A DNA stretch of 60,319 nucleotides from Phycisphaerales bacterium (GTDB lineage: Bacteria; Planctomycetota; Phycisphaerae; Phycisphaerales; UBA1924). How positions within the stretch are numbered: position 1 is the stretch's first letter; every line of letters starts with the position of its first letter. Under the pieces are notes generated by a model. It was not told the origin of the DNA. It was given only the letters and a program-made list of their open reading frames with translations, and did no database searches. The position numbers and the translations under genes were made by a program. Where the stretch lies: the NCBI GenBank assembly GCA_035627955.1, contig DASPKU010000005.1, positions 1 through 60,319 of the forward strand. The letters are read 5' to 3'. Positions 1,540 to 58,475 of the stretch are shown piece after piece.

Positions 1540-3099
1540 ATGAAGTCATGGATGACGTTGGCGGCGGGCGGGGTGGTGGCGTTGGCGGTGGTGGGGTGCT
1601 CGACGTACTCGCCCAGCGAGGAGCCGCTGGTGGATGTGTCGAATCGGGCGCTCGCGGGCAAGGCGCGGGTGCAGGCGATCGACGCGGCCCGCGAACGGGT
1701 GGCGGCCGATCCCGGGCGCACGGCGACGACGCAGCGGGTGCTGAAGGATGTGGCGTGGACGGCCAGCGAGCCGACGACGGTGCGGATGGCGGCGATCGGG
1801 GCGCTGCTGGATGACCCCAGCGAGGCGGTGAGAGCGGACGCGAAGGAGATGGTGAAGCTGCTGCTGCCGCGGGAGCGGTCGCTGGCGGTGGTGATTTACC
1901 TCAGCGAGGTGGCGAAGGCGCGGCGGTGGACGGACGCGATCCCGGCGCTGATCCGCAGCTATTCGCGGAGCGTGGAGAGTTTGGGTTGGACGGGGGGAAT
2001 CCGGGATGCGGACCGGCCCGAGCGCGATGCGATCATCGCGCTGTCGGAGGGGCGGGCGATCGAGGAGGTCGTGTTCGGCGTGTTCCTGAAGCCGCCAGCG
2101 GTGCAGGACACGCTGGGTGCGGACTGGGAGGCGCGGCTGCGGTCGGACGCGTGGGACCTGCTGGCGCGGCTGGACAGGGACGGCACACAGCGGCGGCGGA
2201 TGGTGGGGGCGGTGCCGCCGGGCGAGGCGGAGATCGTCGAGCAGATCCGGCGGTGCGTGCGCGACCTGCGGGCGATGCCGCTGACGGGCGATGAGCTGCG
2301 GTGGCTGTCGCGCCTGCTGGACGCGAAGAAGACGGGGAATGCGGAGTGGTGGTCGCAGGCGGCGGCGGCGATCGCGACGCTGCCGCCGGAGGTGCAGCTC
2401 TCGATGCGGCATGCGGAGCCGGTGCGGTGGGCGAGCGTGGCGCACAAGGAATGGCTGGGGGCCTCGAAGGAGGAACTGCTGGGCGTCCTGCGGGCGCGGC
2501 TGGAGAAGCGGCGGATCTGGGAGCGGAATGTCGAGCAGGCGCGGTACCGCGTGCGCGAGCGGCTGGACCATTGGGCGCCGACGATGGAGTGGGCGGATGT
2601 GCTGGCGCTGCTGATCGCGGATGAGGTGGTGCACGAGCCGGGGGTGTTGAAGGCGATCACGGCGCAGGCGGAGCTTGATCGCAACGACCAGACGACGGAG
2701 TATGGCGGGGCGATCCTGCGGAAGAACGTGGGGCTGGGGACGATCCCGCGGGAGGAGTGGGTGGCGATGCTGTTCCCGCCGCGGCCGGGGCAGCGGCAGG
2801 GGGACGAGCGGTTCGTGGCGTCGGATGACATGCTGAACGCGAGTGACGCGGCGCTGCTGCACTACCACATGCATGTGCAGAAGGAGCGGAACGAGCAGTA
2901 CGCGGGGCCGAGCCCGGGGGACCTGATTTATGCGGCGCGGTTCGGGCGGTCGTGCGTGGTGTTCACGAGCGTTGGTAAGGGTGGGCGGATGAACGTGGAC
3001 TACTACCAGCCGGATGGGGTGGTGGTGGACCTGGGGGAGGTGGAGCCGCCGGCGGTGGAGGTGGATTCGGGGATGCGGCGGGGGATTGGGCCGCGGTAA
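1540..3099 (+). CDS. Lipoprotein with helical-repeat body and JAMM-like C-terminal motif
   Basis: 519 residues. The ATG at 1540 is chosen because it starts a lipoprotein signal (hydrophobic run then VVGC-S, with the lipid-bearing Cys around residue 20). Residues 30-130 are helical and resemble HEAT-type repeats (for example the stretch DDPSEAVRADAKEMVKLLL). The C-terminal part has H441-Y-H443-M-H445, then S458-P-G-D461 after 12 residues, then a strand-rich tail with VDYYQPDGVVVDLGEV. HxH...SxxD is the metal-binding pattern of JAB/MPN (JAMM) peptidases, although the spacing is longer than usual and I cannot place the catalytic Glu. It is probably anchored in the outer or inner membrane. Function unknown. 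A gap of 124 bases precedes the paralogue cluster. Confidence 0.8.
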   Translation: MKSWMTLAAGGVVALAVVGCSTYSPSEEPLVDVSNRALAGKARVQAIDAARERVAADPGRTATTQRVLKDVAWTASEPTTVRMAAIGALLDDPSEAVRADAKEMVKLLLPRERSLAVVIYLSEVAKARRWTDAIPALIRSYSRSVESLGWTGGIRDADRPERDAIIALSEGRAIEEVVFGVFLKPPAVQDTLGADWEARLRSDAWDLLARLDRDGTQRRRMVGAVPPGEAEIVEQIRRCVRDLRAMPLTGDELRWLSRLLDAKKTGNAEWWSQAAAAIATLPPEVQLSMRHAEPVRWASVAHKEWLGASKEELLGVLRARLEKRRIWERNVEQARYRVRERLDHWAPTMEWADVLALLIADEVVHEPGVLKAITAQAELDRNDQTTEYGGAILRKNVGLGTIPREEWVAMLFPPRPGQRQGDERFVASDDMLNASDAALLHYHMHVQKERNEQYAGPSPGDLIYAARFGRSCVVFTSVGKGGRMNVDYYQPDGVVVDLGEVEPPAVEVDSGMRRGIGPR

Positions 3100-3223: not shown

Positions 3224-4558
3224 ATGAACCTCAAGAGCTTGAAGTCGAAGGCGGCGGTCCTGGTGGCGGCGGCGGTGGTGACTGGCGGCCTGGGGGCGAA
3301 GGCGCTGGCGCAGGGTCAGCGGCGGCCGGAGGGGGAGCGGCGGGAGCGTCAGCCGGGGAATCAGGAGCAGCGGCGGAACCAGGATGGGGGTCGGGACGGG
3401 GGGCAGGGCGGTGGTCGCGAGGGCGGCGGGCGTGGGGGCTTTGGCCGCATGGGCGGCGGGTTCATGGAAGGGATGATGGGGTCGGCGGTGACGAGCCGGC
3501 AGCTCGAGAAGTACACGACGATCCTGGGGCTGACCAAGGACCAGCAGCAGACGGTGAAGATGCTGCACGAGGGGTACAGCGAGCAGGCCCGCGAGGTGGG
3601 CGAGAAGGCGCGGGAGGAGATGCGGAAGCTGGGCGAGGAGATGCGCGACTCAGAGGACCGCGAGGGCCTCATGGAGAAGATGCAGAAGAGCATGCGGGAG
3701 GTGCGGGAGACCCGCCGCAAGCAGGATGAGAGCTTCGCCAACGACGTGAAGGCGGTGCTGACGCCCGAGCAGGCGGAGAAGTGGCCGGCGGTGGAGCGGA
3801 TGCAGCGGCGGGAGGCCTCGATGCGGCGCGGGTTCATCAGCGGTGAGCGGGTGGACCTGTTCGCGCTGGTGAACGACAACAGCCTGTCGGCCGAGGCGCA
3901 GAAGAGCGCGGCGCCGATCCTGTCGGAGTATGAGGTGGAGCTGGACCGCGAGCTGATCAAGCGGAACCAGTGGCAGGAGAAGCAGTTCTCGAAGATGAAC
4001 GAGCTGCGGCGGGAGGGGGACTTTGAGGCCATCCAGAAGCTGGTGGAGGAGGGGCGGGAGCTGGACGTGAAGGTGCGGGACGTGAACCGCAAGTATGCCA
4101 AGCAGATCGAGGGGGCGCTGCCCGAGGGGGAGAAGGAGCGGTTCCAGACTGCGTTCAAGCGGGCGAGCTTCCCGGACGTCTACCTCCAGACGCAGAGCGA
4201 CGAGGCGATCGAGGTGGCGCTCAAGCTGAAGGACCTGACGCCCGAGCAGCGGGAGCAGGTGCAGGCGCTGCAAGCCTCGCACGTGAAGGCGCTGAACCCG
4301 CTGAACGAGAAGCTCGCGGCGGCCGTGGAAGAGGCGGAGATGAACTTCAATGTCGGGCAGATGGGGCGCGGCGGGTTCGGGCGGGATGAAGATTCGCCGG
4401 CGGGCAAGCTGCGGCGGGAGAAGCGGGACCTTGACCGCACGACGATGGAGTCGCTGCGGAAGGTGCTGACGGCGGAGCAGGCGGAGAAGCTGCCCCGGCG
4501 TGAGGAGCGCGGCGGGGGCGGGCAGCGGCGGCGCGAGAACGTGAACGAGGAGAACTGA
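3224..4558 (+). CDS. Exported helical protein, paralogue 1 of 4
   Basis: 444 residues with a signal peptide (about 1-30, ending LGAKALAQ) and then a Gly/Arg/Gln-rich low-complexity stretch absent from paralogues 2 and 3. The rest is charged and helical. It carries the landmarks shared by all four neighbours: a helix with LTKDQQ...HEGY, EKWPAVERMQRRE, a G-x-V-DL step, LSEYEVELD, ASFPDVY and LKDLTPEQREQ. The LTxxQ-like helices recall the CpxP/Spy class of periplasmic chaperones, but these proteins are about three times longer and I do not recognise the family. The ATG at 3224 has GGAG nine bases upstream; an in-frame GTG at 3209 is less likely. Confidence 0.85.
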   Translation: MNLKSLKSKAAVLVAAAVVTGGLGAKALAQGQRRPEGERRERQPGNQEQRRNQDGGRDGGQGGGREGGGRGGFGRMGGGFMEGMMGSAVTSRQLEKYTTILGLTKDQQQTVKMLHEGYSEQAREVGEKAREEMRKLGEEMRDSEDREGLMEKMQKSMREVRETRRKQDESFANDVKAVLTPEQAEKWPAVERMQRREASMRRGFISGERVDLFALVNDNSLSAEAQKSAAPILSEYEVELDRELIKRNQWQEKQFSKMNELRREGDFEAIQKLVEEGRELDVKVRDVNRKYAKQIEGALPEGEKERFQTAFKRASFPDVYLQTQSDEAIEVALKLKDLTPEQREQVQALQASHVKALNPLNEKLAAAVEEAEMNFNVGQMGRGGFGRDEDSPAGKLRREKRDLDRTTMESLRKVLTAEQAEKLPRREERGGGGQRRRENVNEEN

Positions 4559-4679
4559 CCGGCCCCGAGGTGTGGGTCGCAGGCAGCGGTGCTGGCCGTG
4601 GCTGGGAAGCGGAGCCGGTGCGCGTGGGACTGGAAGCGCGTGCGACGGAAAGTCCGGGCGGCGGCATCTTCGGTGGGGG

Positions 4680-4703
4680 CGGGCGCGCGGTTCTGCGCGC
4701 CCG
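4680..4703 (+). other. GC hairpin just upstream of the paralogue 2 ribosome-binding site
   Basis: A nine-base perfect stem, CGGGCGCGC (4680-4688) and GCGCGCCCG (4695-4703), encloses a six-base loop and ends six bases before the AGGAG at 4710. No T-run follows, so it is not a classical terminator. It could stabilise the 5' end of the downstream message or affect ribosome access. Confidence 0.5.
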
Positions 4704-4722
4704 CGACACAGGAGAATGCACG

Positions 4723-5967
4723 ATGGCGCGGACAACGCTCACCGGTCGGATGGTTCTGGGAGTCCTTCTCGCGGCGGGGACGCTGGCGGGGGTGGAGGCG
4801 CTTGCGCAGCAGCCCGCGCGGGTGGTGCTTAATGTGAGCGACGGGCCCTTCGGTGGGAACGGCCTGGTGAGCAAGCGGAGTGTCGAGCGTTACGCGGAGC
4901 TGCTGAGCTTCAGCCCTGAGCAGAAGGAGTCGGCGCTGACCATCCACGAGGGGTACCAGGCGTCGATGAAGGAAGTGCAGAAGGCGCGCAGCTCGGCGAC
5001 GGAGGACCTCAACCGCTCGGCGCAGGACAGCGGGGACTTCTCGGTGTTCGCGGAGAAGATGCCGGCGATCACCAAGGAGTACCGCGAGAAGGAGCAGAAG
5101 CTCGAGAGGACGCTGATGGAGGACCTCAAGAGCCTGTGCAGCGGGGCAGGGCAGGAGGACAAGTGGCCCAAGGTCGAGCGGATGCGGCGGCGCGAGGTTG
5201 AGCTCCGGCGCGGCAGCGTGGCGGGCGAGGCGCTGGACCTCATTGAGATCGTGCACAACATGAAGCTGGAGCCGTCGGTGCTCGCGCCCATCAGCGGGGC
5301 GCTGGACGAGTACGAGATTGAGGTCGATGCGGCCGTGAAGGAGCGGCAGTCGCAGCGCAGCGGCGCGCCGGAGTTCAAGCCGGGCGAGCCGCCGGATATC
5401 GAGGCGCTGCGGGCGCAGATGGACAAGATGCGGGAGGCGGGGCAGAAGATCAAGGGCGTGAACGACCGGTTCGCCAAGCGGATCGAGGCGGCGCTGCCGG
5501 AGGAAAAGCAGGCGGCGTTCAGGCAGGCGGTGCGGCAGGCGAGCTTCCCGCAGGTGTACCGCCGATCGCCGATCGTGCGCGACCTGGACAAGGCGCTGGC
5601 GCTCAAGGACCTTTCGAACGAGCAGCGGGAGAAGCTGACGGCGCTCAAGAAGAGCTACGAGCGGGACACTCGCCCGGTGAACGACGCGTGGGCCGCGGCG
5701 ATCGAGGCGTCGGACAAGGAAAAGGGCGAGGGCGCCGGGATGCTGACCGCGCCGGGCGGGGGACCGATGATGATCCGCATGGGCGAGGAGCCCGAGGCGA
5801 TCAAGGAGGCGAGGAAGGCGCGCCGGGAACTGGACGACAAGGCGCGCAAGGCGATGAAGGAGACGCTGAACGAGTCTCAGCAGGCGGCGATCAAGCCGCA
5901 GCCGGGCGAGGTTGAGGAAGGCATGGAGATGGTCACGGACTCGGTGATGATCCGCGCGACGAGGTGA
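4723..5967 (+). CDS. Exported helical protein, paralogue 2 of 4
   Basis: 414 residues with a signal peptide (about 1-29, ending GVEALAQQ). It shares the paralogue landmarks: SKRSVERYAELLSFSPEQ, IHEGY, KWPKVERMRRREVELRRGS, DEYEIEVD, ASFPQVYRR, LALKDLSNEQREK and a SYERDTRPVNDAW helix. It is closest to paralogue 3, which starts three bases after its stop codon. The start at ATG 4723 has AGGAG eight bases upstream and begins the signal peptide; the longer in-frame extension back to 4570 encodes only Gly/Arg-rich sequence. Predicted to be periplasmic and largely helical. Function unknown. Confidence 0.85.
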   Translation: MARTTLTGRMVLGVLLAAGTLAGVEALAQQPARVVLNVSDGPFGGNGLVSKRSVERYAELLSFSPEQKESALTIHEGYQASMKEVQKARSSATEDLNRSAQDSGDFSVFAEKMPAITKEYREKEQKLERTLMEDLKSLCSGAGQEDKWPKVERMRRREVELRRGSVAGEALDLIEIVHNMKLEPSVLAPISGALDEYEIEVDAAVKERQSQRSGAPEFKPGEPPDIEALRAQMDKMREAGQKIKGVNDRFAKRIEAALPEEKQAAFRQAVRQASFPQVYRRSPIVRDLDKALALKDLSNEQREKLTALKKSYERDTRPVNDAWAAAIEASDKEKGEGAGMLTAPGGGPMMIRMGEEPEAIKEARKARRELDDKARKAMKETLNESQQAAIKPQPGEVEEGMEMVTDSVMIRATR

Positions 5968-5970
5968 GCC

Positions 5971-7224
5971 ATGGCCGCAGCGGATAGGAGAGCTTGGTTC
6001 GCCGCGGTGGTGATGACTGCGGGCGCGCTGGGAGCGCTGGGGGCTCCCGGCGCCGCTCTTGCGCAGGATGCCGGCATCGTCGTGACCTCGATCCGGCATG
6101 GGCCGGGGACGGGGCAGGCGGGGCCGATTACCAGGCGCGGCGTTGAGCGGTACACCGAGCTGCTGGAGTTCACGCCCGAGCAGAGGGACGCGGCAATGGC
6201 TCTCTACGAGGGGTACCTCGTGGGGCGTCGGGCGGCGGACGGCGTCAAGCAGAGGGCCAACGAGGAAGCTATCAAGGCGTTCCGCGCCGGGAACCGGGAG
6301 GCCGGGGACCGGGCGGGGCTCTCGCGCGTCAACCAGGAACACGATGCGGAGATCAAGCGGCTGGAGAGGGCGTTCTTCGCCGACCTGCGGTCGCTGTGCA
6401 CCGGGGCTAGCCAGGAGTCGAGCTGGGCGCGGGTGGAGCGGGCGCGCCGGCGCGAGGTCGAACTGCGGCACGGTTCGGTGAACGGCGAGAGCGTGGACCT
6501 GTTCGAGCTTGTGCACCGCCTCAGGCTGACGCCGGAGCAGGCCCGCGGCGTGCGGCCGCTGCTGGATGATTACGAGGTCGAGGTTGACGGCCATCTGAAG
6601 GCCCGCCAGCGGATCGCGGCGGAGACGCCGGGGTTCAACGGCGGCAACGTCTCGCTCGAGGATGTGAAAAAGCGGCTGGCGGAGGCGCGGGAGGCCGGAG
6701 GCGTCATCCGCGATCTCAACGAGCGGCACGAGCGGAAGATCCGCGCGGCGTTGCCCGAGGAGAGGCGGGCGGAGTTCCGGCGGGCCTTCCTGCTGTCTTC
6801 GTACCCGCCGGTATACCGGGCGTCACCGGCGGAGCGGCACCTTGAAGCGGCCCTGAAGCTCAAGGACCTCTCGGCAGCGCAGCGGGAGCAGCTCGTCGCG
6901 GCCAAAGCGTCGTATGAACGGGAGGCACGCCCACTCAACGAGGCGTGGGTCAAAGAGGTGCAGGAGGCCGACGGCCTTGAGGTGGGGGATTGGCTCTACC
7001 CCAGCGAGGCGGGCGACCCGATCCTGCTGCACCTGGACAAGGGGCCCCAGCCGAGGTCGGAGGCCGCAAGGGCGCGCCGGAACCTGGACAAGGCGGTGGT
7101 GGACCGTGTGCTGGCGGTTCTGTCGGATGAACAGCGCGCGGCGGTGTCTGTGGGGGAGAAGGAACTGGCGGACGCGGCTCCCAAGAAGGGGGACGGTGGT
7201 GCTGGGGAGGGCGACCTCGAATGA
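5971..7224 (+). CDS. Exported helical protein, paralogue 3 of 4
   Basis: 417 residues, signal peptide about 1-31 (ending GAALAQ). Shared landmarks are RRGVERYTELLEFTPEQ, ALYEGY, SWARVERARRREVELRHGS, DDYEVEVD, SSYPPVY, LKLKDLSAAQREQ and SYEREARPLNEAW. The gap to paralogue 2 is three bases, so the two are probably cotranslated. The C-terminus ends in an Asp/Gly/Glu-rich tail. Conservation with paralogue 2 extends over almost the whole mature protein, consistent with a tandem duplication that has since diverged. Function unknown; probably a periplasmic helical protein. Confidence 0.85.
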   Translation: MAAADRRAWFAAVVMTAGALGALGAPGAALAQDAGIVVTSIRHGPGTGQAGPITRRGVERYTELLEFTPEQRDAAMALYEGYLVGRRAADGVKQRANEEAIKAFRAGNREAGDRAGLSRVNQEHDAEIKRLERAFFADLRSLCTGASQESSWARVERARRREVELRHGSVNGESVDLFELVHRLRLTPEQARGVRPLLDDYEVEVDGHLKARQRIAAETPGFNGGNVSLEDVKKRLAEAREAGGVIRDLNERHERKIRAALPEERRAEFRRAFLLSSYPPVYRASPAERHLEAALKLKDLSAAQREQLVAAKASYEREARPLNEAWVKEVQEADGLEVGDWLYPSEAGDPILLHLDKGPQPRSEAARARRNLDKAVVDRVLAVLSDEQRAAVSVGEKELADAAPKKGDGGAGEGDLE

Positions 7225-7296
7225 CCGGCGGTGCACGGCTGGGGGGATGGCGGGTCACCTGCTCGCACCGTGTAACGGGGCTGGTGGGGATTCGTT

Positions 7297-7302
7297 TATA
7301 CT
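7297..7302 (+). promoter_or_regulatory. Candidate -10 box for paralogue 4
   Basis: TATACT matches the bacterial -10 consensus at five of six bases and stands out in very GC-rich sequence. It lies 42 bases before the ATG at 7344 and in a similar context (followed by CCCGG) to TATATT upstream of the gene at 57681. No convincing -35 hexamer is visible. It suggests paralogue 4 has its own transcription start. Confidence 0.4.
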
Positions 7303-7343
7303 CCCGGACAGGCGTTCCGCCTCAGGTCCGCAGGAGCAACTCG

Positions 7344-8588
7344 ATGATTGGCCGCATGGTTTCCAAACTCGTTCGGGTCGTCGCCGTGGTTGTGGTGGCG
7401 GGGGCGGTCGCGTTCACGTCGTCGCCTGCACAGGCACAGTGGGGCGGGATGGGGATGGACGCGCGGGCAATGGACGTCTCCATTTCCCGCCGGACCGTGG
7501 ACGCGATGACGCGGATCCTGATGCTCGACAAGGACCAGAAAGAGACGGTCCTCAACCTGCACGACGGGTACAAGAAGGACTATGAGGCCGCGCAGAACAA
7601 GATGACGGACGGGATGAAGGGGATCCAGGAGAAGGTCGCGGACACGGGCGACTTCACGCTGTTCCAGAAGGAGATCCCGAAGCTCGCCAAGGAGTTCTCG
7701 GAGAAGTCGCGGACGCTGGAGACGACGTTCCTGAACGACGTGAAGCTGGCGCTGACGGAGCCGCAGCTGGCGAAGTGGCCCCAGCTCGAGCGCTACCGCC
7801 GGCGTGACAAGATGATGCGGGTGGGTGTGGTGAGCGGCGCGGCGGTTGACCTGATCCGCGTGGTGGACCGCCTCAAGCTGACCGCGACAGACAAGGCGGA
7901 GCTCGATTCGCTGCTGGAGCGCTACGAGCTGGACATCGACAAGAGCGTGAGCGACCTGGAGCGTATGCAGAAGGAGATGGAAGAGAAGTTCATGAACGGC
8001 GACGGCCGCAACATGATGGACATTGGCAAGATCCAGGAGCAGCTGAAGGCGCTGTACGAGCCGGGCAAGGCGATGCGGGAGACCAACAAGGAGTACACCC
8101 GCAAGATCGGGCTGGTGCTGGACGAGAAGTCGCGGGAGCGGTTCGAGGCGGAGGTCAAGGCGCGCGGCTTCCCGCGTGTGTACCGGCAGGCGCACGTCAT
8201 CAAGCAGATGGAGGCCGCGGAGAAGCTCGAGGGGCTGGACAAGGGCAAGAAGGACGAGATTGCGGCGTTGCGGGCGAGCTACCTGAAGGAGGCGGCGAGC
8301 ACGAACGAGCGTTGGGCCAAGGCCATCGAGGAGCGCGACGACAAGGCGGGCGGCACATTCGCGGCCATGATGTCGAACATGACCGGCGGCGGGGGTGAGC
8401 TCAACAAGGACGTGAATGAGGCGCGCCAGGCCCGCAAGGAGCTGGACGCCAAGACCAAGGAGAAGCTGGAGTCGCTGCTGACCGAGGAGCAGTGGAGCAA
8501 GCTGCCCGCGGCCCCGCCCGAGCCGCGCGGCGGCCCGTGGGCCGACATGATGCCCCAGCCCGATGACGAGGACGAGCCGGGTCAGTGA
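7344..8588 (+). CDS. Exported helical protein, paralogue 4 of 4
   Basis: 414 residues. Signal peptide about 1-33 (SSPAQAQ), then SRRTVDAMTRILMLDKDQ, LHDGYKKDY, AKWPQLERYRRRD, ERYELDID, RGFPRVYRQ, and a LEGLDKGKKDEIAALRASY helix. These match the landmarks of the three upstream genes. The ATG at 7344 has AGGAG seven bases upstream, and the signal peptide starts there. The stop codon is directly followed by the first possible start of gspE, so this paralogue may be transcribed together with the secretion operon. Function unknown. Its body is charged, helical and likely coiled coil. Confidence 0.85.
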   Translation: MIGRMVSKLVRVVAVVVVAGAVAFTSSPAQAQWGGMGMDARAMDVSISRRTVDAMTRILMLDKDQKETVLNLHDGYKKDYEAAQNKMTDGMKGIQEKVADTGDFTLFQKEIPKLAKEFSEKSRTLETTFLNDVKLALTEPQLAKWPQLERYRRRDKMMRVGVVSGAAVDLIRVVDRLKLTATDKAELDSLLERYELDIDKSVSDLERMQKEMEEKFMNGDGRNMMDIGKIQEQLKALYEPGKAMRETNKEYTRKIGLVLDEKSRERFEAEVKARGFPRVYRQAHVIKQMEAAEKLEGLDKGKKDEIAALRASYLKEAASTNERWAKAIEERDDKAGGTFAAMMSNMTGGGGELNKDVNEARQARKELDAKTKEKLESLLTEEQWSKLPAAPPEPRGGPWADMMPQPDDEDEPGQ

Positions 8589-10274
8589 GTGCGTGTGACC
8601 TCACGCGACCCGACAACGCCGATGGATGCCAAGGCGCAGGAAAGTTCAGGACGAATGACGGCGATCCAGTCCAGCCCGATCAAGCCCTCCAGTGCGGAGG
8701 AGAAGGCGCCCGTGCCCGGCACGGGCGGCCCTGTTGTCCTGCAGCAGAAGCCGGAGGTGGACGGGGCGGCGGCGGCGCTGCTGCCGGGCGATCAGGCGGT
8801 GCGGCTGCGGGCGATTCCGTACGCGTTCGAGAACGGGCGGCTGCTGGTGGCGATGCTCGACCCGGCGGACCTGATCGCGGCTGACGAGGTGTCAATCTGC
8901 GCCGGCAAGCCGGTGACGCGGGTGGGCATCGCGCAGGAAGCGTTCACCGAGCTGCTGCGGGACGTGCACGGCATCACGGCAGCGCAGATGGCGGCGCGCC
9001 TGGGCGGGGCGGAGGCGGACGAGGATGATCTCGTCACCAACCTCGAGGCGATTGAGGCTGACGACCTGCACCGGATGGCCGAGCAGCCGTCGCTGATCAA
9101 CCTGGTGAACCTGATCATCCTGGAGGCGATCCGCGAGCGGGCCAGCGACGTGCACGTGGAGCCCTTCGAGAAGAAACTGGCGGTCAAGTACCGCATCGAC
9201 GGCGTTCTCGTGGAGCGGGAGCCGCCGCCCAAGCAGCTGCAGCCGGCGATCACCAGCCGCATCAAGATCATGGCGGGGATGAACATCGCCGAGCGGTATG
9301 CGCCGCAGGACGGGCACATCTCGCTGCGGTTCGAGGGGCGGAAGATCGACATCCGCGTGAGCACGGTGCCGACCCTGTACGGCGAGAGCGTGGTGATGCG
9401 CATCCTGGACAAGGAGGCGATCAACCTCGACCTGATGGCGCTGGGCATGCGCGAGCCCGACCGCCAGGCGATGCAGAAGCTGATCGACCTGCCGCACGGC
9501 ATGGTGCTGGTGACGGGGCCGACGGGCAGCGGCAAGACGACGACGCTGTACGCGGCCCTGAGCAAGCTGTACGACCCGACGCTCAAGATCATCACGATCG
9601 AGGACCCGGTGGAGTACGAGCTGTCGGGGGTGAACCAGATCCCGGTGAACCCTAAGCGCGGCTTGGACTTTGCGAACGGGCTGCGGAGCATCCTGCGGCA
9701 GGACCCGGACGTGATCATGGTGGGCGAGATCCGCGACGGGGAGACGGCGGAGATCGCCGTGCGTGCGGCGTTGACGGGGCACCTGGTGTTCTCGACGCTG
9801 CACACCAACAACGCGGTGAGCGCCGCGGGGCGGCTGCTCGATATGGGCGTGGAGCCGTTCCTGCTCTCGAGCGTGCTGGAGGGGATTCTGGCGCAGCGGC
9901 TGGGGCGGCGCGTGTGCCAGGCGTGCAAGGTTCCGATGCCGCTGCCGGAGGAAGTGAAGCACCGCCTCGCGGACGTGGAGATGAAGTTCTTCGAGGGTGG
10001 GCAGTGCTGGCGGGGCGTGGGCTGCGAGAAGTGCAACGGCATGGGGATGCGCGGGCGGCTGGGGTTCTACGAGGTCATCCTCACGAATACGCGGATGCGG
10101 CAGGCGATCGCCAAGCGCGTGGGGGCCGTGGAAATGGGCCAGACGCTGCCGCCGGGGTTCGTCACCATGCGGCGCGACGGCATGCTCAAGGCCGGTTCGG
10201 GCATGACGACGGTGGAAGAGGTGCTCCGCGCCACGCAGGATGCCGACGAGAGCGTCGGCGGGGCGGGTGAGTGA
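8589..10274 (+). CDS. gspE: Type II secretion ATPase GspE
   Basis: 561 residues if GTG 8589 is used. ATG 8622 and ATG 8655 (with AGGA just upstream) are alternatives, because the first ~50 residues are not conserved. Domains in order: an MshEN/GspE N-terminal domain (about 60-150), then the secretion ATPase core. Walker A is GPTGSGKTT (310-318), Walker B region IMVGEIRD (376-383), and the His box is HTNN. A tetracysteine zinc finger (C443, C446, C479, C482) is typical of GspE. It hydrolyses ATP at the inner-membrane face to drive pseudopilus assembly. It is the first gene of a run with very short gaps and overlaps. Confidence 0.95.
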   Translation: MRVTSRDPTTPMDAKAQESSGRMTAIQSSPIKPSSAEEKAPVPGTGGPVVLQQKPEVDGAAAALLPGDQAVRLRAIPYAFENGRLLVAMLDPADLIAADEVSICAGKPVTRVGIAQEAFTELLRDVHGITAAQMAARLGGAEADEDDLVTNLEAIEADDLHRMAEQPSLINLVNLIILEAIRERASDVHVEPFEKKLAVKYRIDGVLVEREPPPKQLQPAITSRIKIMAGMNIAERYAPQDGHISLRFEGRKIDIRVSTVPTLYGESVVMRILDKEAINLDLMALGMREPDRQAMQKLIDLPHGMVLVTGPTGSGKTTTLYAALSKLYDPTLKIITIEDPVEYELSGVNQIPVNPKRGLDFANGLRSILRQDPDVIMVGEIRDGETAEIAVRAALTGHLVFSTLHTNNAVSAAGRLLDMGVEPFLLSSVLEGILAQRLGRRVCQACKVPMPLPEEVKHRLADVEMKFFEGGQCWRGVGCEKCNGMGMRGRLGFYEVILTNTRMRQAIAKRVGAVEMGQTLPPGFVTMRRDGMLKAGSGMTTVEEVLRATQDADESVGGAGE

Positions 10275-11536
10275 TGCCCACGTTCGCGTACCGCACTCTT
10301 TCACAGAATGGATCAGCCAACGGACGCGCGGGGGCGACCATCGAGGCGGTGGACCGCGCCGCGGCCGTGCGGGAGCTGATGCGGCGGGGCGTGACGCCCA
10401 CGTCGGTAGAGGTGGTCACCAACGGGCAGGCGAAGGCGCTGGCGAGGGCCGACGCGGGCGGGGGCGCGGTGATCGGGCCGGGGCAGGGCGCCGGAGTGAT
10501 GTCGCTGTCAGAGATGGCGAACTTCATCCGCGAACTGGCGACGGCGTTGCAGGCGGGGCTGCCGCTGGTGCAGTCGCTCAAGACGATCGCGAAGCAGGGG
10601 CGCTCGCCCAAGCAGAAGGCGATGCTCGACTACATCATCGGGCAGGTGGAGCACGGCAAGAGCCTGGCGGACGCGATGGCGTCGTGGGGGGCGCCGTTCG
10701 GCGAGCTGACGATCAACATGACGCGGGCGGGGGACATCTCGGGGCGGATGGCCGAGGTGCTCAAGCAGGCGGCGGACCTATTGGACAAGGACGTGAAGCT
10801 GCGGCGGAGCCTCTTGAGCGCGACGCTGTACCCGATGATCCTCTGCGTGCTGGTGGTGGGGGCGATCATCGTGGTGGTGACGGTGATCGTGCCCAAGCTG
10901 CTCAAGCAGTTCGCGGGCAACGCGTCGGCGCTGCCGTGGCCGACGAAGGTGGTGCAGAACACAGCAGACTTCTTCGCGGGGTACTGGTGGGCGATCATCC
11001 CGGCGCTGGCGCTGGTGGTGTGGTCTTTCCTGCGGTACTACCGCACGCCCGAGGGGCGGCTGAATGTTGATACCAAGCTGCTGAGCGTGCCGGTGCTGGG
11101 GCGGCTGCTGCGGGATGTCGCGGTGGCGCGGTTCACGCGCACGCTGGGGACGCTCACGGCGTCGGGCATCCCGGTGATCATGGCCCTGCGCGTGACCAAG
11201 GGGACGCTCGGCAACAAGGCGATGGAGCAGGTGATCGAGGCGGTGATCGAGAAGGTCGCGGCCGGCAAGACGATCGCCGAGGTGATGGAACGGAGCAGCT
11301 ACTTCCCGCCCATGCTGGTGCAGATCGTGAACCTGGGCGAGCGGTCGGGCAAGCTGGACGAACTGCTGAGCCAGGCGGCGACGGCGTTCGAGGACCGCAC
11401 GGAGATGAGCATCAAGCTGTTCACGACGGTGCTGCCGCCGGTGCTGGTGGTGATGCTGGCGGGGGTGGTGGGTTTTGTCGTGCTGGCGATCATGCTGGCG
11501 CTGCTGGAGTTCCAGAACGCGGTCTCGGTCGCGTGA
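10274..11536 (+). CDS. gspF: Type II secretion inner-membrane platform protein GspF
   Basis: 420 residues with two T2SSF domains (about 75-200 and 280-405) and hydrophobic segments around 195-220, 240-260 and 390-412. FIRELATALQAGLPL and FTRTLGTLTASGIPV are the repeated GspF signatures. The platform protein couples the GspE motor to the pseudopilus. The ATG at 10274 overlaps the gspE stop (TGATG), indicating translational coupling; an in-frame GTG lies directly before it. The length is close to the usual 400. Confidence 0.95.
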   Translation: MPTFAYRTLSQNGSANGRAGATIEAVDRAAAVRELMRRGVTPTSVEVVTNGQAKALARADAGGGAVIGPGQGAGVMSLSEMANFIRELATALQAGLPLVQSLKTIAKQGRSPKQKAMLDYIIGQVEHGKSLADAMASWGAPFGELTINMTRAGDISGRMAEVLKQAADLLDKDVKLRRSLLSATLYPMILCVLVVGAIIVVVTVIVPKLLKQFAGNASALPWPTKVVQNTADFFAGYWWAIIPALALVVWSFLRYYRTPEGRLNVDTKLLSVPVLGRLLRDVAVARFTRTLGTLTASGIPVIMALRVTKGTLGNKAMEQVIEAVIEKVAAGKTIAEVMERSSYFPPMLVQIVNLGERSGKLDELLSQAATAFEDRTEMSIKLFTTVLPPVLVVMLAGVVGFVVLAIMLALLEFQNAVSVA

Positions 11537-11605: not shown

Positions 11606-12052
11606 ATGAATCGGAGCTTCAGGAGCTTGAGGAACACGCGGCGTGCATTCACGATCATCGAGGTGATCGTGATCGTCGTCATCATCGGCGTCATCGCGGC
11701 GGTGGTCACACCGCGGCTGTTCTCGAAGGTGACAGAGAGCAAGAAGTCGATGGCGCAGAGCAACGCCGCGACGCTGTTCCAGGCGATGCAGACCTACTCG
11801 CTTGATTGCGGGATGCCGGAGCCCGGATCGTCGATCCGCATTCTCCTCGAGCGGCCGTCGAACGTGGACGAGGGCGCCTGGAAGGGTCCGTATGTGCAGA
11901 ACGAGAACGACCTCAAGGACCCTTGGGGGAACTACTTCAACCTGGTGGTTCCCGGGCAGTTCAACGTGGACTTTGACATCGTGAGTTACGGCAAGGACGG
12001 CCAGCCCGATGGCGAGGGCGAGAACGAGGACATCATCTCAGGGAAGCGGTGA
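11606..12052 (+). CDS. gspG: Major type II pseudopilin GspG
   Basis: 148 residues. The prepilin signal is TRRA-FTIIEVIVIVVIIGVIAAVV: processing would occur after Ala rather than the usual Gly, with Glu at +5. The C-terminal half has the GspG features DPWGNYF and SYGKDGQPDGEGENEDI, the latter matching the Asp/Glu-rich calcium-binding end of GspG. It should polymerise into the pseudopilus after cleavage by a prepilin peptidase, which is not encoded in this window. The ATG at 11606 follows AGGG and starts the basic leader. Confidence 0.92.
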   Translation: MNRSFRSLRNTRRAFTIIEVIVIVVIIGVIAAVVTPRLFSKVTESKKSMAQSNAATLFQAMQTYSLDCGMPEPGSSIRILLERPSNVDEGAWKGPYVQNENDLKDPWGNYFNLVVPGQFNVDFDIVSYGKDGQPDGEGENEDIISGKR

Positions 12053-12058
12053 GCAGGA

Positions 12059-12637
12059 TTGCAGGGAAGCCGACGCACATCCCGCAGCACTGGGTTTAGC
12101 CTCGTTGAGGTGATCGTTGTCATTGTGATTATCAGCGTGCTGGCGGCGGCGACCATTCCCCGGATCACCGGCATGGCGGGGCGGCGGGTGCGGGCGTCCG
12201 CGGAGCAGGTGGCGGACCTGCTGTCGGCGGCGTCGCGCCGGACGTCGCTCACCAGCCAGCAGGCGATGGTGGGGTACAACGCCGACCTGAACGCGGTGAG
12301 TTTCAGCGTGCTGGTGGCCGATGCGGGCGACAGCGCGAGCGCTTCGTGGCAGGAGGACCGGCTCGCGCCTTCGGTCATGCTCGGCGACACGATCATCGTC
12401 GCGGTGGAGGCCGATGGTGGCGCGATGGACCCTGCGGCGTGGCGGTTTGAGTTTGTTCCCGGCGTGCGGCGGCCGAACCTGGCGATCATCCTGAGCGACG
12501 CGAACGACCGCGAGCGGTGGCGGGTCGAGCTGCCCGCGACCACGGACCAGGCGGTGGTGAGTCCGGGCGAGCACGGTGTGCTGGCGGACCTGTCGATTGA
12601 TCTGGACGCCGCGGGCGTGGGGAGCGCCGCGTGGTGA
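12059..12637 (+). CDS. gspH: Minor pseudopilin, GspH-like
   Basis: 192 residues starting at TTG 12059 (AGGA just upstream). The leader STG-FSLVEVIVVIVIISVLAA has Gly at -1 and Glu at +5. The body is variable, as expected for GspH, with a GspH-like helix (RASAEQVADLLSAASRRTSLTSQ) and strand-rich C-terminus. Position between gspG and the I-type gene supports the call. The TTG start is unusual, but there is no ATG or GTG before the prepilin signal in this frame. Confidence 0.8.
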   Translation: MQGSRRTSRSTGFSLVEVIVVIVIISVLAAATIPRITGMAGRRVRASAEQVADLLSAASRRTSLTSQQAMVGYNADLNAVSFSVLVADAGDSASASWQEDRLAPSVMLGDTIIVAVEADGGAMDPAAWRFEFVPGVRRPNLAIILSDANDRERWRVELPATTDQAVVSPGEHGVLADLSIDLDAAGVGSAAW

Positions 12638-13110
12638 AGAAGCCCTGCACAACCCACCCCAACCCCTCCCTCAGGGAGGGGCTTCGGAGAAGGCATGGCG
12701 TGGTGCTGGTGGACGTGCTCGTCGCCACCATCATGCTGGGAGTGTCGCTGGCGACCCTGATCAGCCTGACGGGGCGGGCGCTGAGCACGCAGCGGCAGGG
12801 GGAGCAGCTGCAGATCGCTGCGATGCTGCTGGACACGCAGTTGAATCTGGTGCTGGCGCGGGGGCCGGATGACTACGGGTCGCGGTACACGCTCGAGGGG
12901 CCGTGCGAGGAGCCGTACACAAACTACACGTACCGGTTGGACTTCGAGGAGGGCGAGGGTGGGAACGCGTACCGCGTGGTCGCGACGGTGTCGTGGATGG
13001 ACGGCGGCGCGGTGCGGTCGGAGACGGTTGAGACGATGATGTCGCCGCGGCTGGGCGATGATCCGGACCCGGACCGGCGTCCGGAGCAGCCGGCGGTGCG
13101 CGGGTACTAG
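12634..13110 (+). CDS. gspI: Minor pseudopilin, GspI-like, with repeat inserted in its leader
   Basis: 158 residues from GTG 12634, which overlaps the previous stop (GTGA). The prepilin helix is RRRHG-VVLVDVLVATIMLGVSLATLISL with Gly at -1 and Asp in place of Glu at +5. The gene order and the size of the mature protein (~130 residues) fit GspI. Residues ~6-18 of the leader are encoded by a copy of the interspersed palindrome at 12651-12685 and read as THPNPSLREGL. Because the leader is removed by prepilin peptidase, such an insertion could be harmless. Confidence 0.82.
   Translation: MKKPCTTHPNPSLREGLRRRHGVVLVDVLVATIMLGVSLATLISLTGRALSTQRQGEQLQIAAMLLDTQLNLVLARGPDDYGSRYTLEGPCEEPYTNYTYRLDFEEGEGGNAYRVVATVSWMDGGAVRSETVETMMSPRLGDDPDPDRRPEQPAVRGY
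12651..12685. repeat. Interspersed palindromic element, copy 2 (inside a pseudopilin gene)
   Basis: This block is 33/35 identical to 1105-1139. The core is CCCCTCCC-TCA-GGGAGGGG, a perfect eight-base stem with a three-base loop. It lies entirely within the coding sequence between the start codon and the prepilin helix and keeps the frame open. Confidence 0.85.
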
Positions 13111-13133
13111 GTTCGGTTTGCAGGGAGCGTGCG

Positions 13134-13877
13134 TTGCGGAAGGGCGGGCCAATCAGGCGAAGACGCGGCTTCACGATCGTGGAGCTGGTGGTCGCCTCGC
13201 TCGTGGGGGTGCTCGTGGCGACGGGCACGGCCGCGGCGATCTCGCAGATGTACAGGGCGCGGAACCACTCGCGGGCGCACCAGCAGGCGTTCCAGCGGGC
13301 GGACACAGCGGCGGCGCGGATCGCGCTGGACCTGACCACCGCGCTGCGGCGGAGCGACCCGCTGCAGCAGTGCGTGCGGATCATGAACGGCGGCGGCCCG
13401 GGGAGCGAGCGCGACGAGCTGCTGGTGCTGATGACGAGCATGCGGCCCCTGCGCGGGGCCGATGGCGAGGCGGAGGGGCAGGAATACGAGGTCCAGTACC
13501 GCGTCGAGCCGGGGATCGACGGGCGCGAGGCGCTGTGGCGGCGGATGGACATCGGGATGGATGATTACATCGACGGCGGCGGCATCGCCACGCCGATCGC
13601 GGGCGGTGTGACGGCCCTGAGCTTCCTGGCGACGGACCAGAGCGGCGAGTGGATCGAGCAGTGGGACTCGGACGCTGATGGGCTGCCGCACGCGGTGAAG
13701 ATCACGGTGACGGCGCTGGCGGATGATGGGCGGGCCAGCGCGACGGGCGTGCGGATCGTGGCCCTGGACCGCGTGCCGCTGCCGCCGGTGGTTGAGGGTG
13801 AGGGGGAGGAGTCGAGCGAGGGCGAGTCGGGGGCATCCACGGGCGGTTCAAGCGGCAGCAGCGGGGGTGGGCGTTGA
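13134..13877 (+). CDS. gspJ: Minor pseudopilin, GspJ-like
   Basis: 247 residues from TTG 13134, with AGGGAG eight bases upstream. The leader RRRRG-FTIVELVVASLVGVLVATG has Gly at -1 and Glu at +5. The length and position before gspK fit GspJ. The last ~30 residues are an unusual Glu, Ser and Gly-rich tail (GEGEESSEGES...GGSSGSSGGG), probably disordered. The gene ends in a 4-base overlap with the next start. Confidence 0.82.
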   Translation: MRKGGPIRRRRGFTIVELVVASLVGVLVATGTAAAISQMYRARNHSRAHQQAFQRADTAAARIALDLTTALRRSDPLQQCVRIMNGGGPGSERDELLVLMTSMRPLRGADGEAEGQEYEVQYRVEPGIDGREALWRRMDIGMDDYIDGGGIATPIAGGVTALSFLATDQSGEWIEQWDSDADGLPHAVKITVTALADDGRASATGVRIVALDRVPLPPVVEGEGEESSEGESGASTGGSSGSSGGGR

Positions 13878-15217
13878 GCCGGCATCGTGCACGCTTCGGT
13901 GGACAGCGACGGGCCCGGCGCGGGTTCGCGACCGTGATGGTGTTCGGCATCATCATCGTGGCGGCAGTGATCATCAGCATGATTCAGTCGTCGGCGTTCT
14001 CGCAGGCCGCGGCGGGACGGGAGAGCATGGCACGGGTGCGGGCAACGTGGGCGGCGCGGGCGGGGGTGGAGGCCACGCTGGCGCGCCTGGAGTACGCCAC
14101 CGAGAACCCCGAGCCGGGGGACGCCTTCAAGCTGATGGACGACATGGTCGAGATCGCCGACGGCGTGCTGATCGACGCCACGTACCGCATCGCGACGACC
14201 GAGGGCAACAAGGAGGTCCCCGGGCCCCTGGACGCGCACGCGAAGCTCAACATCAACCGCATGACCCGGGACCAGCTGCTCACCATCGAGCCGCTGATGA
14301 CGGAGGACATCGCGGACTCCATCCTCGATTGGATCGACACCGACGAGGAGCCCAACCCGATGGGCGCCGAGAGCCCTTACTACATGAGCCTGCCCTACAG
14401 CTACCTCGCCCGCAACGGCCCCATGCAGTCGATCATGGAGCTCGAGCTCGTGGCGGGGGTCGACCAGCGCGACCTGCGGGGCGAAGATTGGAACGGCAAC
14501 GGGCTGCTGGACCCCAACGAGAACGACGGCGAGGCGAGCTGGCCGCCGGACAACGCGGACGGCATCCTCGACATGGGGTGGTCGGGGATCCTGACGGCGG
14601 CGAGCGTGGATGGCGGGCTGGGCGCGTCAGGCGAGCCGCGTCTGAACCTCAAGACCGCGAGCGAGTCGGACATCGCCCAGCGCACGACGGTGACCGGCGC
14701 GCAGGCGAGCGTGATCGCCAACTACGCCGCGAACAACGAGAACGCCACGATGGCGGACTTCATCGGGCGTAGCCTGCGCAGCCTGGGGCAGCAGCCGGGG
14801 CAGCCGCCGCCGCAGGTGGAAGCACTGACCGACGAGCAGCTGGGGCTGCTGCTGGATGAGTGCGACATCCCCGCGGAGCAGGCGGCGGGGCCGATCCCCG
14901 GGAAGCTGAACATCAACACCTGCCCGGCGGAGGTGATGCGGTTCATCCCCGAGATCGGCGACGAGATGGCGGACGCGATCATCTCGGACCGGTCGGGGCG
15001 GGCGGACGGGTACACGTCGATCATCGACCTGCTGGAAGTGCCGGGGATGAACCGGCGGACGCTGGCGACGCTCTACAACTTGTTGACGGTGCGGTCGAAC
15101 GTGTACGTTGTGACCAGCCGTGGGCGGGATACGAAGACCGGGCTCGAAGTTGAAATGACGGTGACGCTGGACCGTTCGGCGGTCCCCGTGGTCATCAAAG
15201 AGGTGCGTGTGCGATGA
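13874..15217 (+). CDS. gspK: Minor pseudopilin GspK
   Basis: 447 residues from TTG 13874 (TTGA overlap with gspJ). The leader is RRG-FATVMVFGIIIVAAVIISM; the absence of Glu at +5 is normal for GspK, which caps the pseudopilus tip. The body has two helix-hairpin-helix-like SAM regions: KLNINRMTRDQLLTI...DSILDWIDTDEEPN and KLNINTCPAEVMRFIPEIGDEMADAI. These are diagnostic for GspK, including the DWIDxD(E) element. The C-terminus is strand-rich. Confidence 0.9.
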   Translation: MSRHRARFGGQRRARRGFATVMVFGIIIVAAVIISMIQSSAFSQAAAGRESMARVRATWAARAGVEATLARLEYATENPEPGDAFKLMDDMVEIADGVLIDATYRIATTEGNKEVPGPLDAHAKLNINRMTRDQLLTIEPLMTEDIADSILDWIDTDEEPNPMGAESPYYMSLPYSYLARNGPMQSIMELELVAGVDQRDLRGEDWNGNGLLDPNENDGEASWPPDNADGILDMGWSGILTAASVDGGLGASGEPRLNLKTASESDIAQRTTVTGAQASVIANYAANNENATMADFIGRSLRSLGQQPGQPPPQVEALTDEQLGLLLDECDIPAEQAAGPIPGKLNINTCPAEVMRFIPEIGDEMADAIISDRSGRADGYTSIIDLLEVPGMNRRTLATLYNLLTVRSNVYVVTSRGRDTKTGLEVEMTVTLDRSAVPVVIKEVRVR

Positions 15218-17097
15218 AGGCAGGGCTGACATCCCGGACCGATGGCCGGAGCAATGGCCGCAGCAACGGTCGCAACGGCCGCAACGGCAGGCCCGGCGCG
15301 CTCGCGGTGCTGCACACGCAGGAGGGGCGGCACCGGCTGCTCATCGCGCGCCACCGCGAGCGGTGGGAGGTGGTGGAGGCGCGGACGCTCCAAAGCTTGG
15401 ACAGCGCGGTGCTGACGCCGCTGTTCGAGGAGCACCTGGTGGCGCAGGTGGTGCGGGTCGCGCCGGGGCGCGAGTCGATCGCCCGGTGCGTACAGGTGCC
15501 GGGCGGGGATGACGCGTCGCTCGCGGGCGCGGTGTCGCTGCTGGCAGAGGCCGAGCTGCCGTCGACGCTGCCGGCCTACCGGCGCGCCGGCGGCGTGCTG
15601 CCGGGCGGGAACGCGGACCTCCGGACCGGCCTGCTGACGGGCTGGGTGCCTTCGGCGCGGACGCCCGAGCCGATCGGCGAGACCCCGGAGGTGTGGGTGT
15701 CGCCGGTGGCATGCCTGGCGATGCTGCGGGGGGACTCGGGACGCGCGGCCGTGTACTGCGAGGCTTCTGAGGGGCTGATCTGCCTTCTGGTGCCGGGTCC
15801 GGAGCGGACGGTGGCACGCGTGACGGTGGAGGAGCCGGCGGACGGCGAGGAGTGGGGGGCGCGGGTGGCGCGGGCGGTGGAAGAGACGGCGCAGATCGCC
15901 GGCGTCACCGCTGCATCGGTGGGCATCTTCAACACCGGCTCGCGGGCGAGCACGACCAGGCGTCTGCTGTTGGAGAGCGCGTCGGTCTCGAACGTGAAGG
16001 TGCGGGTGTCGGGCGTGCGAGAGGACTCGGGCTGGCTGGACGACTTTGGCCTCGCGTTGGGCGCCGTGCTGATCGCGGGGTCGGAGCATGCGGCGGTGCG
16101 GTCGCTGGCGGGGCTGCACGCGGACACGCCGCGTCAGCAGCTGTCGCCCATCGAGTCGGCAACAGCGTGGATCGCACGCCCGCGGAACGCGTGGGCCGTC
16201 ATTGCGGCGTCGCTGGTGCTGATGCTGCTGGTGCCCTGGGGCCTGGCCCACGCCCGCGCGGCCATCCTGGCTCCCCGGGCCGAGTCGCTCAAGGAGTTGA
16301 AGGTCGGTCGCGAGGGCGCGGAGAAGAAGGCGGCGATGTACGAGCAGCTCCAGAAGAGCCGCTGGCCGATGACCAAGCTGCTGGCGGACATCTCGACGGC
16401 GGCGCCGCAGGGGGTGGTGATCTCGCAGCTGAGCCTGAACGTGGGGCAGGGCGTGACGATCAAGGGCACGGCGTCAAGCGAGGAGGAGATCACGAGGTTC
16501 CAGGAGAAGCTCGCGGGCACGCGGGTGTTCGGCAACGTGAGCATCGGGCGGCAGGCGGCCAAGGGCTCGGGGTACGAGTTCGACATGACCGCCAAGGTGA
16601 CGGACAACGTGCACGCCCAGGTGAAGATCACGGAGGAGAACGACTACGCGGCCAAGCCGCTGGGCGTGCGGCTGCACGGCGAGGGTGCTTCGAACACGGC
16701 GGTGGCCCCGGCGAGCGAGCCGGAGCGGCGGGGCGGGCGGCGTCCAGATCGCGACCGCGGCGAGCGGAGCGGAGATGCCCCGGCGCGGACCGAGGGTGAG
16801 TCCCGGCGTCCGGCGAGCACGACGCCAACGGCGGTACCGCCGCCGCTGACGGATGCGGACATCGCCAAGATGGACCGCAACACGGCCATGAAGGAGTGGT
16901 CGTCGCGTCAGTCCTACGCGCAGAAGAACCCGAGCCTTGACTCGGCCACCAAGCAGCGGCTGAAGGACGAGGCGGAGAAGTGCAAGGCGCAGATGCAGAA
17001 GGCCGCGACAGCAGCCCCCGCGGGCGGCGCGCCCGCAGCACCGGCCGGCGCTGCACCGGCGACACCCGCCACGCAGCCCGTAGGAGGGACCAAGTAA
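15214..17097 (+). CDS. Type II secretion L component, PilM/PilN-like fusion
   Basis: 627 residues, start ATG 15214 (ATGA overlap with gspK). After an Asn/Gly/Arg-rich N-terminus, residues ~28-300 are a soluble, PilM/GspL-like cytoplasmic region. One transmembrane helix follows at ~326-346 and then a PilN-like periplasmic part (~350-480), with the pattern LLADISTAAPQGVVISQLSLN...VTIKGTASSEEEITRFQEKL characteristic of PilN. The remaining ~150 residues are Pro/Ala/Arg-rich. GspL proteins are natural PilM-PilN fusions that link GspE to the inner-membrane assembly. The low-complexity N- and C-terminal extensions make it longer than most. Confidence 0.8.
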   Translation: MKAGLTSRTDGRSNGRSNGRNGRNGRPGALAVLHTQEGRHRLLIARHRERWEVVEARTLQSLDSAVLTPLFEEHLVAQVVRVAPGRESIARCVQVPGGDDASLAGAVSLLAEAELPSTLPAYRRAGGVLPGGNADLRTGLLTGWVPSARTPEPIGETPEVWVSPVACLAMLRGDSGRAAVYCEASEGLICLLVPGPERTVARVTVEEPADGEEWGARVARAVEETAQIAGVTAASVGIFNTGSRASTTRRLLLESASVSNVKVRVSGVREDSGWLDDFGLALGAVLIAGSEHAAVRSLAGLHADTPRQQLSPIESATAWIARPRNAWAVIAASLVLMLLVPWGLAHARAAILAPRAESLKELKVGREGAEKKAAMYEQLQKSRWPMTKLLADISTAAPQGVVISQLSLNVGQGVTIKGTASSEEEITRFQEKLAGTRVFGNVSIGRQAAKGSGYEFDMTAKVTDNVHAQVKITEENDYAAKPLGVRLHGEGASNTAVAPASEPERRGGRRPDRDRGERSGDAPARTEGESRRPASTTPTAVPPPLTDADIAKMDRNTAMKEWSSRQSYAQKNPSLDSATKQRLKDEAEKCKAQMQKAATAAPAGGAPAAPAGAAPATPATQPVGGTK

Positions 17098-17690: not shown

Positions 17691-17692
17691 CG

Positions 17693-31324: not shown

Positions 31325-31873
31325 CGCGCGGTCGACAGTCATCCCACGCGTTGGGCATCGCTGCGCGGATCGATCAAATTTCTGTGTCGCGGCACTCGCT
31401 TGCACTCATGAATGCGCAACTCTTCTCCACATCAGTGCTAGAGGCCACGCGCTGGGGTGCGGCGCTCATCCCGGCGCGCGGCGCCCGCGCCGTCTCTCAT
31501 CCCCGCGATCTGGTGCATAGAACCCACGAACCCGGGGACTTACCGCCCCTCGATCGGCGGGTATCGACCAGCTGGGTTAAACGCCCCCATGTCCCGCATG
31601 AGTGGGAAGTTAGGGACCACGTAGCCGCCCGGTTCCCGTATGGTGCCTCCGCACGACTGAGGCGGCGTTTATCGGAACTTGAGCTCGCCAAGAGCTTGGA
31701 CCGAGAGCCCCCAAAGACCCGAGAGGCGGGTAGTGAACCTGTGCCGGTAAGGATGCTGGTGCGGTTGCTGCGGCCTCCAGAAGACAGTGAGAGTTGGCCG
31801 GGCGTACCGGTGAGGGGTCTTAGGGGCCGATGTTTCGCAGACTCGTCTTGGTTGTGCTGATGAGGAGTCTGTG

Positions 31874-58421: not shown

Positions 58422-58475
58422 TCTCGTCTGCCCACAACCCGTTTCGTGCCTCCGTCTGTTCAAGGAGAGAGTGAG

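Follow-up and report, generated by a model that had tools for sequence, protein, structure and literature searches.

Spy, a four-helix protein of 16 kDa, forms dimers, and the dimer acts as an ATP-independent cradle which holds unfolded clients (available part of PMC8144458). Spy and CpxP belong to the Pfam family LTXXQ (PF07813). Two further comparisons are with CnrX, NccX and ZraP (Metal_resist and relatives) and with STV, a Salmonella VirG-like protein (5ihf, 5io8) consisting of a single domain in a chain of 116 amino acids. Clients of type II secretion can need chaperones encoded beside them (available part of PMC4713064), and Lif, LipH and CpaB are helper proteins needed before type II secretion (available parts of PMC4713064 and PMC13381987). 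We analyzed a 60,319-nucleotide stretch of a Phycisphaerales bacterium (assembly GCA_035627955.1, contig DASPKU010000005.1, positions 1 to 60,319; hereafter the window), in which four tandem genes for exported proteins, g1 to g4, precede the type II secretion gene gspE. Like Spy and CpxP, these proteins are exported, are predicted to form helical hairpins and carry L-T-x-x-Q-like motifs at both unit ends, with weak to moderate profile matches. In contrast to Spy and CpxP, they fuse three units in one chain, stay under the Pfam cut-off and are tied to type II secretion. The Lif, LipH and CpaB helpers differ in being membrane-anchored and, in the available part of PMC4713064, encoded beside the client and not beside gspE; at E ≤ 1 in Pfam, g1 to g4 matched no family of this type.

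Type II secretion of planctomycetes seems to be little described. A gene row described for Planctopirus limnophila has four genes with a type II secretion annotation and, after them, six proteins that are restricted to planctomycetes and have no known function (available part of PMC10632474). A literature search did not find LTXXQ together with Planctomycetes. Judged by titles, none of the LTXXQ papers found concerns secretion, and none of the papers found describes a three-unit fusion locked to a secretion operon. The fold is known; what seems new is the predicted fusion of three units and its fixed place at a secretion operon, in window proteins that Pfam and NCBIfam leave unnamed.

The first-pass annotation of the window had described four exported paralogues filling positions 3224-8588 with no other gene and with the last copy abutting gspE. 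Coordinates, lengths and all-pair BLASTP agreed with this description. All six pairs of g1 to g4 are homologous, with 27-38% identity over 389-407 aligned positions; as the E values lie between 1e-37 and 1e-77 in every pair, the likeness is not due to chance. The highest identity of 38% was found between g2 and g3. Intergenic gaps measure 164 nucleotides between g1 and g2, 3 between g2 and g3 and 119 between g3 and g4, and 0 nucleotides separate the g4 stop from the gspE frame. A simple gene finder based on GC content at third codon positions called no extra gene within the array. Each protein starts with a signal peptide ending in an A-x-A|Q-like site, as judged by eye and by a crude rule. 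The sequence landmarks listed in the annotation occur in the same order in all four proteins, the one deviation being SWA in g3 in place of KWP. A scan for promoters and terminators gave nothing above chance. GspS-type pilotins carry a lipoprotein signal. A simple lipobox-like pattern was present in 2 of 77 family frames and in none of the window proteins, and a pilotin function of g1 to g4 was rejected on this ground.

No curated family claims the four proteins, and the annotation had likewise failed to recognise them: no NCBIfam model reached its cut-off with g1 to g4, and no enzyme family matched them in Pfam or NCBIfam. LTXXQ was nevertheless matched in different thirds of two of the proteins, namely by g1 at residues 94-185 (E 2.2e-4, 22.3 bits) and by g3 at residues 290-391 (E 0.0029, 18.7 bits), which pointed to internal repeats; g2 and g4 were not listed among the Pfam LTXXQ matches. 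When g4 was modelled with AlphaFold2 from eight sequences, the model had a mean predicted local distance difference test score (pLDDT) of 82 and displayed three successive units, each composed of short-long-long-short helices (residues 49-157, 170-275 and 284-384). The threefold repeat was also evident from unit profiles of 69 members, which matched each other with E values of 5e-9 (repeats 1 and 2), 4e-13 (repeats 1 and 3) and 4e-7 (remaining pair). Unit-versus-unit scores were 41-70, compared with maxima of 21 for column-shuffled profiles (50 for each pair) and 19 for reversed profiles. A circular-shift control scored as high as the real unit comparison; the shift leaves the local match intact and this control was counted neither way. 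When the whole g4 model was compared with the PDB, CnrX (Z 10.7) and STV (Z 10.0) came out on top. Repeat 3 folded alone (pLDDT 81.5) had CnrX in its first eight PDB rows (Z 10.7), with NccX (8.4), ZraP (7.7), STV (7.5) and CpxP (7.2) in lower rows of the 50 amid unrelated helical proteins. Thus, the predicted four-helix hairpin is present three times and matches CnrX and STV, with unrelated helical proteins at similar Z. Where Spy is a single domain that forms a homodimeric cradle, each chain of this family holds three units.

Sequence profiles and conserved residues were in line with this prediction. LTXXQ was matched by 12 of 38 members at E ≤ 0.01 (best 3.9e-10) and Metal_resist by 3 of 38; a dispersed relative (L120) scored 30.8 bits with LTXXQ and exceeded the 24.3-bit gathering cut-off. 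A profile of the 38 members searched against all PDB sequences placed STV first (E 0.011) and matched Spy at E 0.39-0.69, both on unit 1. For the residue counts, 77 family frames were found, with start codons set by a crude rule, and 69 of them were aligned and placed in the tree; the eight excluded frames were a double frame in L049, the fragments in L074 and L080 (two in either locus) and three L054 copies of L014. Paired L-T-x-x-Q motifs are typical of CpxP and Spy. Such paired motifs are present in the family: glutamines in L-x-x-x-Q context at g4 positions 65, 141, 302 and 383 are kept in 91-99% of members, with Q65 and Q141 bracketing repeat 1 and Q302 and Q383 bracketing repeat 3. Repeat 2 has no glutamine column at ≥70%. 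W145, E149, R150 and R154 at the end of unit 1 are kept in 91-100%.

Several observations weigh against assigning the proteins to this fold. The best Pfam match of g1 to g4, LTXXQ, stays under its gathering cut-off, and unrelated, chance-like PDB sequences fall in the same E range as Spy. The unrelated plant factor TGA3 reached Z 9.3 against the whole g4 model, so that the margin of the CnrX and STV matches is small, helical bundles matching easily. With repeat 3 alone, a designed protein (9.3) and TGA3 (9.2) ranked above NccX, ZraP and CpxP, and Foldseek gave no match with E < 0.5 for the g4 model or for repeat 3. Taking the model, the unit profiles, the PDB matches, the LTXXQ matches and the kept glutamines together, g1 to g4 and their relatives are nonetheless very likely three-unit proteins of CpxP/Spy/CnrX type, with three predicted hairpins fused in one chain. 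The annotation's suggestion of proteins like Spy and CpxP but larger was thus borne out at the level of a model.

Among solved structures, CnrX matched repeats 2 and 3 best, and repeat 3 also drew lower-ranking matches to NccX and ZraP. The match to CnrX would suit sensors of CnrX or CpxP type that act via a membrane partner to control how the secretion operon is expressed, and two dispersed copies in family f2 do lie beside sigma-factor-like genes (L131 by Pfam, L129 by eye). CnrX metal sensors have conserved histidine and methionine metal ligands. In contrast to CnrX, NccX and ZraP, our family is without conserved histidine or cysteine: among the 69 members, no histidine column exceeds 16% and no cysteine column 7% (columns ≥60% filled, signal region excluded for cysteine), and methionine reaches 54% and 46% only at positions 342-343, outside the long helices. 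The lack of these ligands argues against a CnrX-type sensor, which was rejected as main explanation. Moreover, no sigma or anti-sigma gene was seen by eye among the genes called around the window array, and a sensor function appears very improbable.

To follow the family in other planctomycetes and record its distance to gspE, as the annotation had recommended, we examined two genome samples. In 61 related genomes the family was present in 35 and a gspE orthologue (≥58% identity) in 34, and a family member lay directly upstream of gspE in 33 of the 34 (the window, 17 loci and 15 loci). The exception is G034, where gspE starts at the contig edge and no family match was found. Two genomes of 82% and 81% completeness (G019 and G025) have the family without that gspE. 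Among 201 genomes of the order, 101 carried the gspE orthologue and 102 the family; both occurred together in 101 of 101, and G499 was the sole genome with the family but without a gspE orthologue. A member stood directly upstream of gspE on the same strand in 99 of the 101. In 88 this followed from match positions (19-456 nucleotides between family match and gspE match; positions in G051 were taken from the family scan of the 61 genomes), and in 11 from individual inspection of the remaining 13. In G520 three family members start 1.4 kb upstream of gspE, and in G453 the contig ends inside gspE. The family is thus a constant neighbour of core genes in both samples, which overlap by 25 family-positive genomes. 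As the genomes share ancestry and are not independent, the tiny Fisher p-value is not to be taken at face value. Twelve further genomes have a more distant gspE (51-56% identity) and gave no family match at E ≤ 1e-20 with nine candidates scored per genome; in G053, the one inspected, genes upstream of gspE look unrelated. The line between orthologues (E ≤ 2.2e-193) and these twelve (E ≥ 7e-166) was drawn after the gap had been seen.

The gene beyond the array was compared at 32 loci using a simple gene finder, three of them without a called gspE. It fell into 16 groups without mutual BLASTP match in 29 loci, the largest group holding five; L048 and L053 were undercounted and the upstream gene of L053 is likely a miscall. 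Since this gene varies, the neighbourship with gspE is kept while its surroundings differ. The link between the family and type II secretion is real and strongly supported. Scattered homologues with no such link had been considered in the annotation; copies are scattered indeed, but one is almost always next to gspE.

A position this constant, with the family absent from none of the 101 genomes holding the gspE orthologue, could also mean that the proteins are structural or assembly parts of the machine, for instance periplasmic contacts of the secretin or the pseudopilus, with the paralogues as subunits of one complex. The array order g1-g2-g4, which recurs in four genera, points in the same direction. 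Such a role is unlikely given that the type II-like ATPases of the twelve genomes come without a family match, that dispersed copies exist and that a locus may hold anything between 1 and 5 copies. Divergence is also fast: gspE-proximal copies are 19-36% identical to g4 (38 sequences), compared with 58-79% for gspE of these genomes.

A tree of the 69 members, calculated by a quick method and containing many weak branches, was used to trace the paralogues. Support was measured by the Shimodaira-Hasegawa-like approximate likelihood ratio test (SH-aLRT), and of the groupings of g1, g2 and g4 only that of g1 passes the mark of 95. Here g1 forms a position-1 clade with the genes at the same position in G002, G003 and G028 (SH-aLRT 97), g2 groups with the second array genes of the same three genomes (92), and g4 with the gspE-proximal genes of G002, G003, G004, G011 and G028 (90). 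The third gene, g3, is sister of g2 (94). As g1, g2 and g4 group by position, the array looks like an old ordered triple with a local duplication giving rise to g3 from g2. The taxonomic family of the window has up to five members at the locus (G007), whereas 13 loci of other taxonomic families have one member before gspE, the split G051 copy being counted as one.

Additional copies are dispersed, five of them in the window's own genome. Several of their neighbours there are enzymes, some with signal peptides (S10 and S41 peptidases, CotH, a glucose/sorbosone dehydrogenase), and no common context was found for the dispersed copies. Some are longer than array members. The 637-residue member at L131:5688-8301 has EF-hands near its C-terminus and lies beside a divergent sigma-70-type gene resembling those for extracytoplasmic function factors (Pfam); L129 resembles it by eye. 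An 818-residue frame at L126:5591-8044 holds the family in two separate matches and may be a fused pair, and the L120 relative is part of a 1084-residue frame (4498-7749). On a 7.3 kb contig from a planctomycete metagenome-assembled genome (L014), a tandem triple occurs with no type II secretion gene on the contig, and the copy on a 6.8 kb contig without gspE (L015) groups in the tree with gspE-proximal copies of family f2. A genome-contig scan yielded 2 loci only. A sample of 392 genomes from the phylum gave matches in 28: 17 full-length, all in the same order, and 11 as single-unit partial matches only, two of them in the same order. The absence of full-length members outside the order is soft, because four candidates were scored per genome.

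Signal peptides together with tandem and dispersed copies, some longer and one with EF-hands, would also be expected of cargo, that is, of helical surface or extracellular proteins expanded by duplication and exported by the system. From one species to the next, the cargo genes adjoining a secretion operon usually differ. The gspE-adjacent member is nearly invariant, unlike such genes, and is predicted to share its fold with periplasmic chaperones and sensors, making cargo a rather doubtful explanation.

The proteins probably assist the type II secretion machine encoded downstream, perhaps as chaperones. We favor a dedicated helper because the Spy fold is of chaperone type and type II clients elsewhere can need adjacent chaperones. 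More specifically, there is about an even chance that g1 to g4 act as dedicated periplasmic helpers, most likely as holding chaperones for clients or machine parts. Once exported, each chain with its three consecutive CpxP/Spy/CnrX-type hairpins would offer an extended single-chain surface comparable to the cradle of the Spy dimer. Working independently of ATP, this surface may hold clients of secretion, or else pseudopilins and subunits of the secretin, in a soluble and competent state for the machine to take up, and tandem and dispersed paralogues would serve different clients. A more tentative version regards the family as a clade-specific, obligatory type II component, with g1, g2 and g4 as a set of periplasmic docking chaperones that load different clients; the triple Spy/CpxP-type chain accompanies the machine in every sampled genome of the order that has it.

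Other observations speak against a dedicated helper at gspE. A shared fold by itself shows no function, so the chaperone role can only be suggested, and adjacency would fit a structural or regulatory part, or cargo, equally well. The gspE-proximal copies do not form a single clade: on the tree, this label has to change 10 times, compared with 23 in shuffles, and at least 3 of the 10 are forced by strongly supported branches. The paralogue next to gspE has therefore changed over time, which tells against a structural subunit as well. In G051, G027 and G567 the gspE-proximal member is split into two overlapping frames, representing broken genes or assembly errors. Finally, neighbours of dispersed copies are not clearly enriched in signal peptides (25 of 60 versus 77 of 234, p 0.13; 30 loci, crude signal-peptide rule, simple gene finder), and the idea that dispersed copies are chaperones of adjoining secreted enzymes was rejected on this basis.

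The genes following the array confirm the annotation of a type II secretion operon, as gspE, gspF, gspG, gspK and the secretin gene have family matches. The gspI-like gene and the M and C-like genes gave no Pfam match, and their names rest on gene position and on BLAST comparison with other loci; the H-I-J-K-like gene order recurs in other loci. On the other side, g1 is adjoined by a lipoprotein-like gene without family match in Pfam or NCBIfam. Its relatives also occur beside position-1 clade members in L046 (G002) and L085 (G011); in L085 the relative and the position-1 member sit about 30 kb away from gspE.

Features of the locus. Positions refer to the window unless a locus is given; repeats are those of the g4 model.
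Feature	Position	Strand	Description
Lipoprotein-like gene	1540..3099	+	adjoins g1; BLAST relatives 40% and 36%
g1	3224..4558	+	444 aa, ATG; position-1 paralogue; signal peptide, Gly/Arg-rich linker, predicted three-hairpin region
g2	4723..5967	+	414 aa, ATG; position-2 paralogue
g3	5971..7224	+	417 aa, ATG; apparent duplicate of g2
g4	7344..8588	+	414 aa, ATG; gspE-proximal paralogue, the one modelled
g4 repeat 1	7488..7814	+	residues 49-157; predicted CpxP/Spy/CnrX-like hairpin; STV Z 10.0, CnrX Z 9.6
g4 repeat 2	7851..8168	+	residues 170-275; predicted CnrX-like hairpin; CnrX Z 10.7
g4 repeat 3	8193..8495	+	residues 284-384; predicted CnrX/ZraP/CpxP-like hairpin; folded alone; CnrX Z 10.7
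gspE	8589..10274	+	type II secretion ATPase; TIGR02533 E 3.6e-176, 586.6 bits, below equivalog cut-off 630.25
gspF	10271..11536	+	TIGR02120 E 2.5e-103, below equivalog cut-off; T2SSF above cut-off
gspG	11606..12052	+	major pseudopilin; TIGR01710 above cut-off; T2SSG
gspH, I, J, K-like genes	12059..15217	+	prepilin N-terminus only in H, J; T2SSK domains in K
gspL, M, C-like genes	15214..18481	+	PilN domain in L
gspD	18525..21284	+	secretin; Secretin, four Secretin_N stretches, weak N0 domain
Split member (G051)	L074:6806-8195
Split member (G027)	L080:1539-2824
Split member (G567)	L138:2132-3677

Elsewhere in the window, the sign of the GC skew changes from positive to negative near 32 kb (31500-32500) and remains negative to the window end, as expected at a replication terminus. 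An exosortase gene (48032-48895; 8TM_EpsH above cut-off) is followed by a weak EpsI-like gene (48902-49597). Two small proteins encoded at 57681-59180 look secreted and may be substrates for sorting; they had no NCBIfam match at E ≤ 0.001.

For a long time it has been an open question how folded clients are recognised and held in the periplasm by the type II secretion system. A family that tracks one branch of the machine, has a predicted chaperone-type fold and is encoded beside the ATPase gene provides a concrete handle on how clients may be held. Furthermore, through this family a fold that is known from small chaperones and sensors gains a form with several units.

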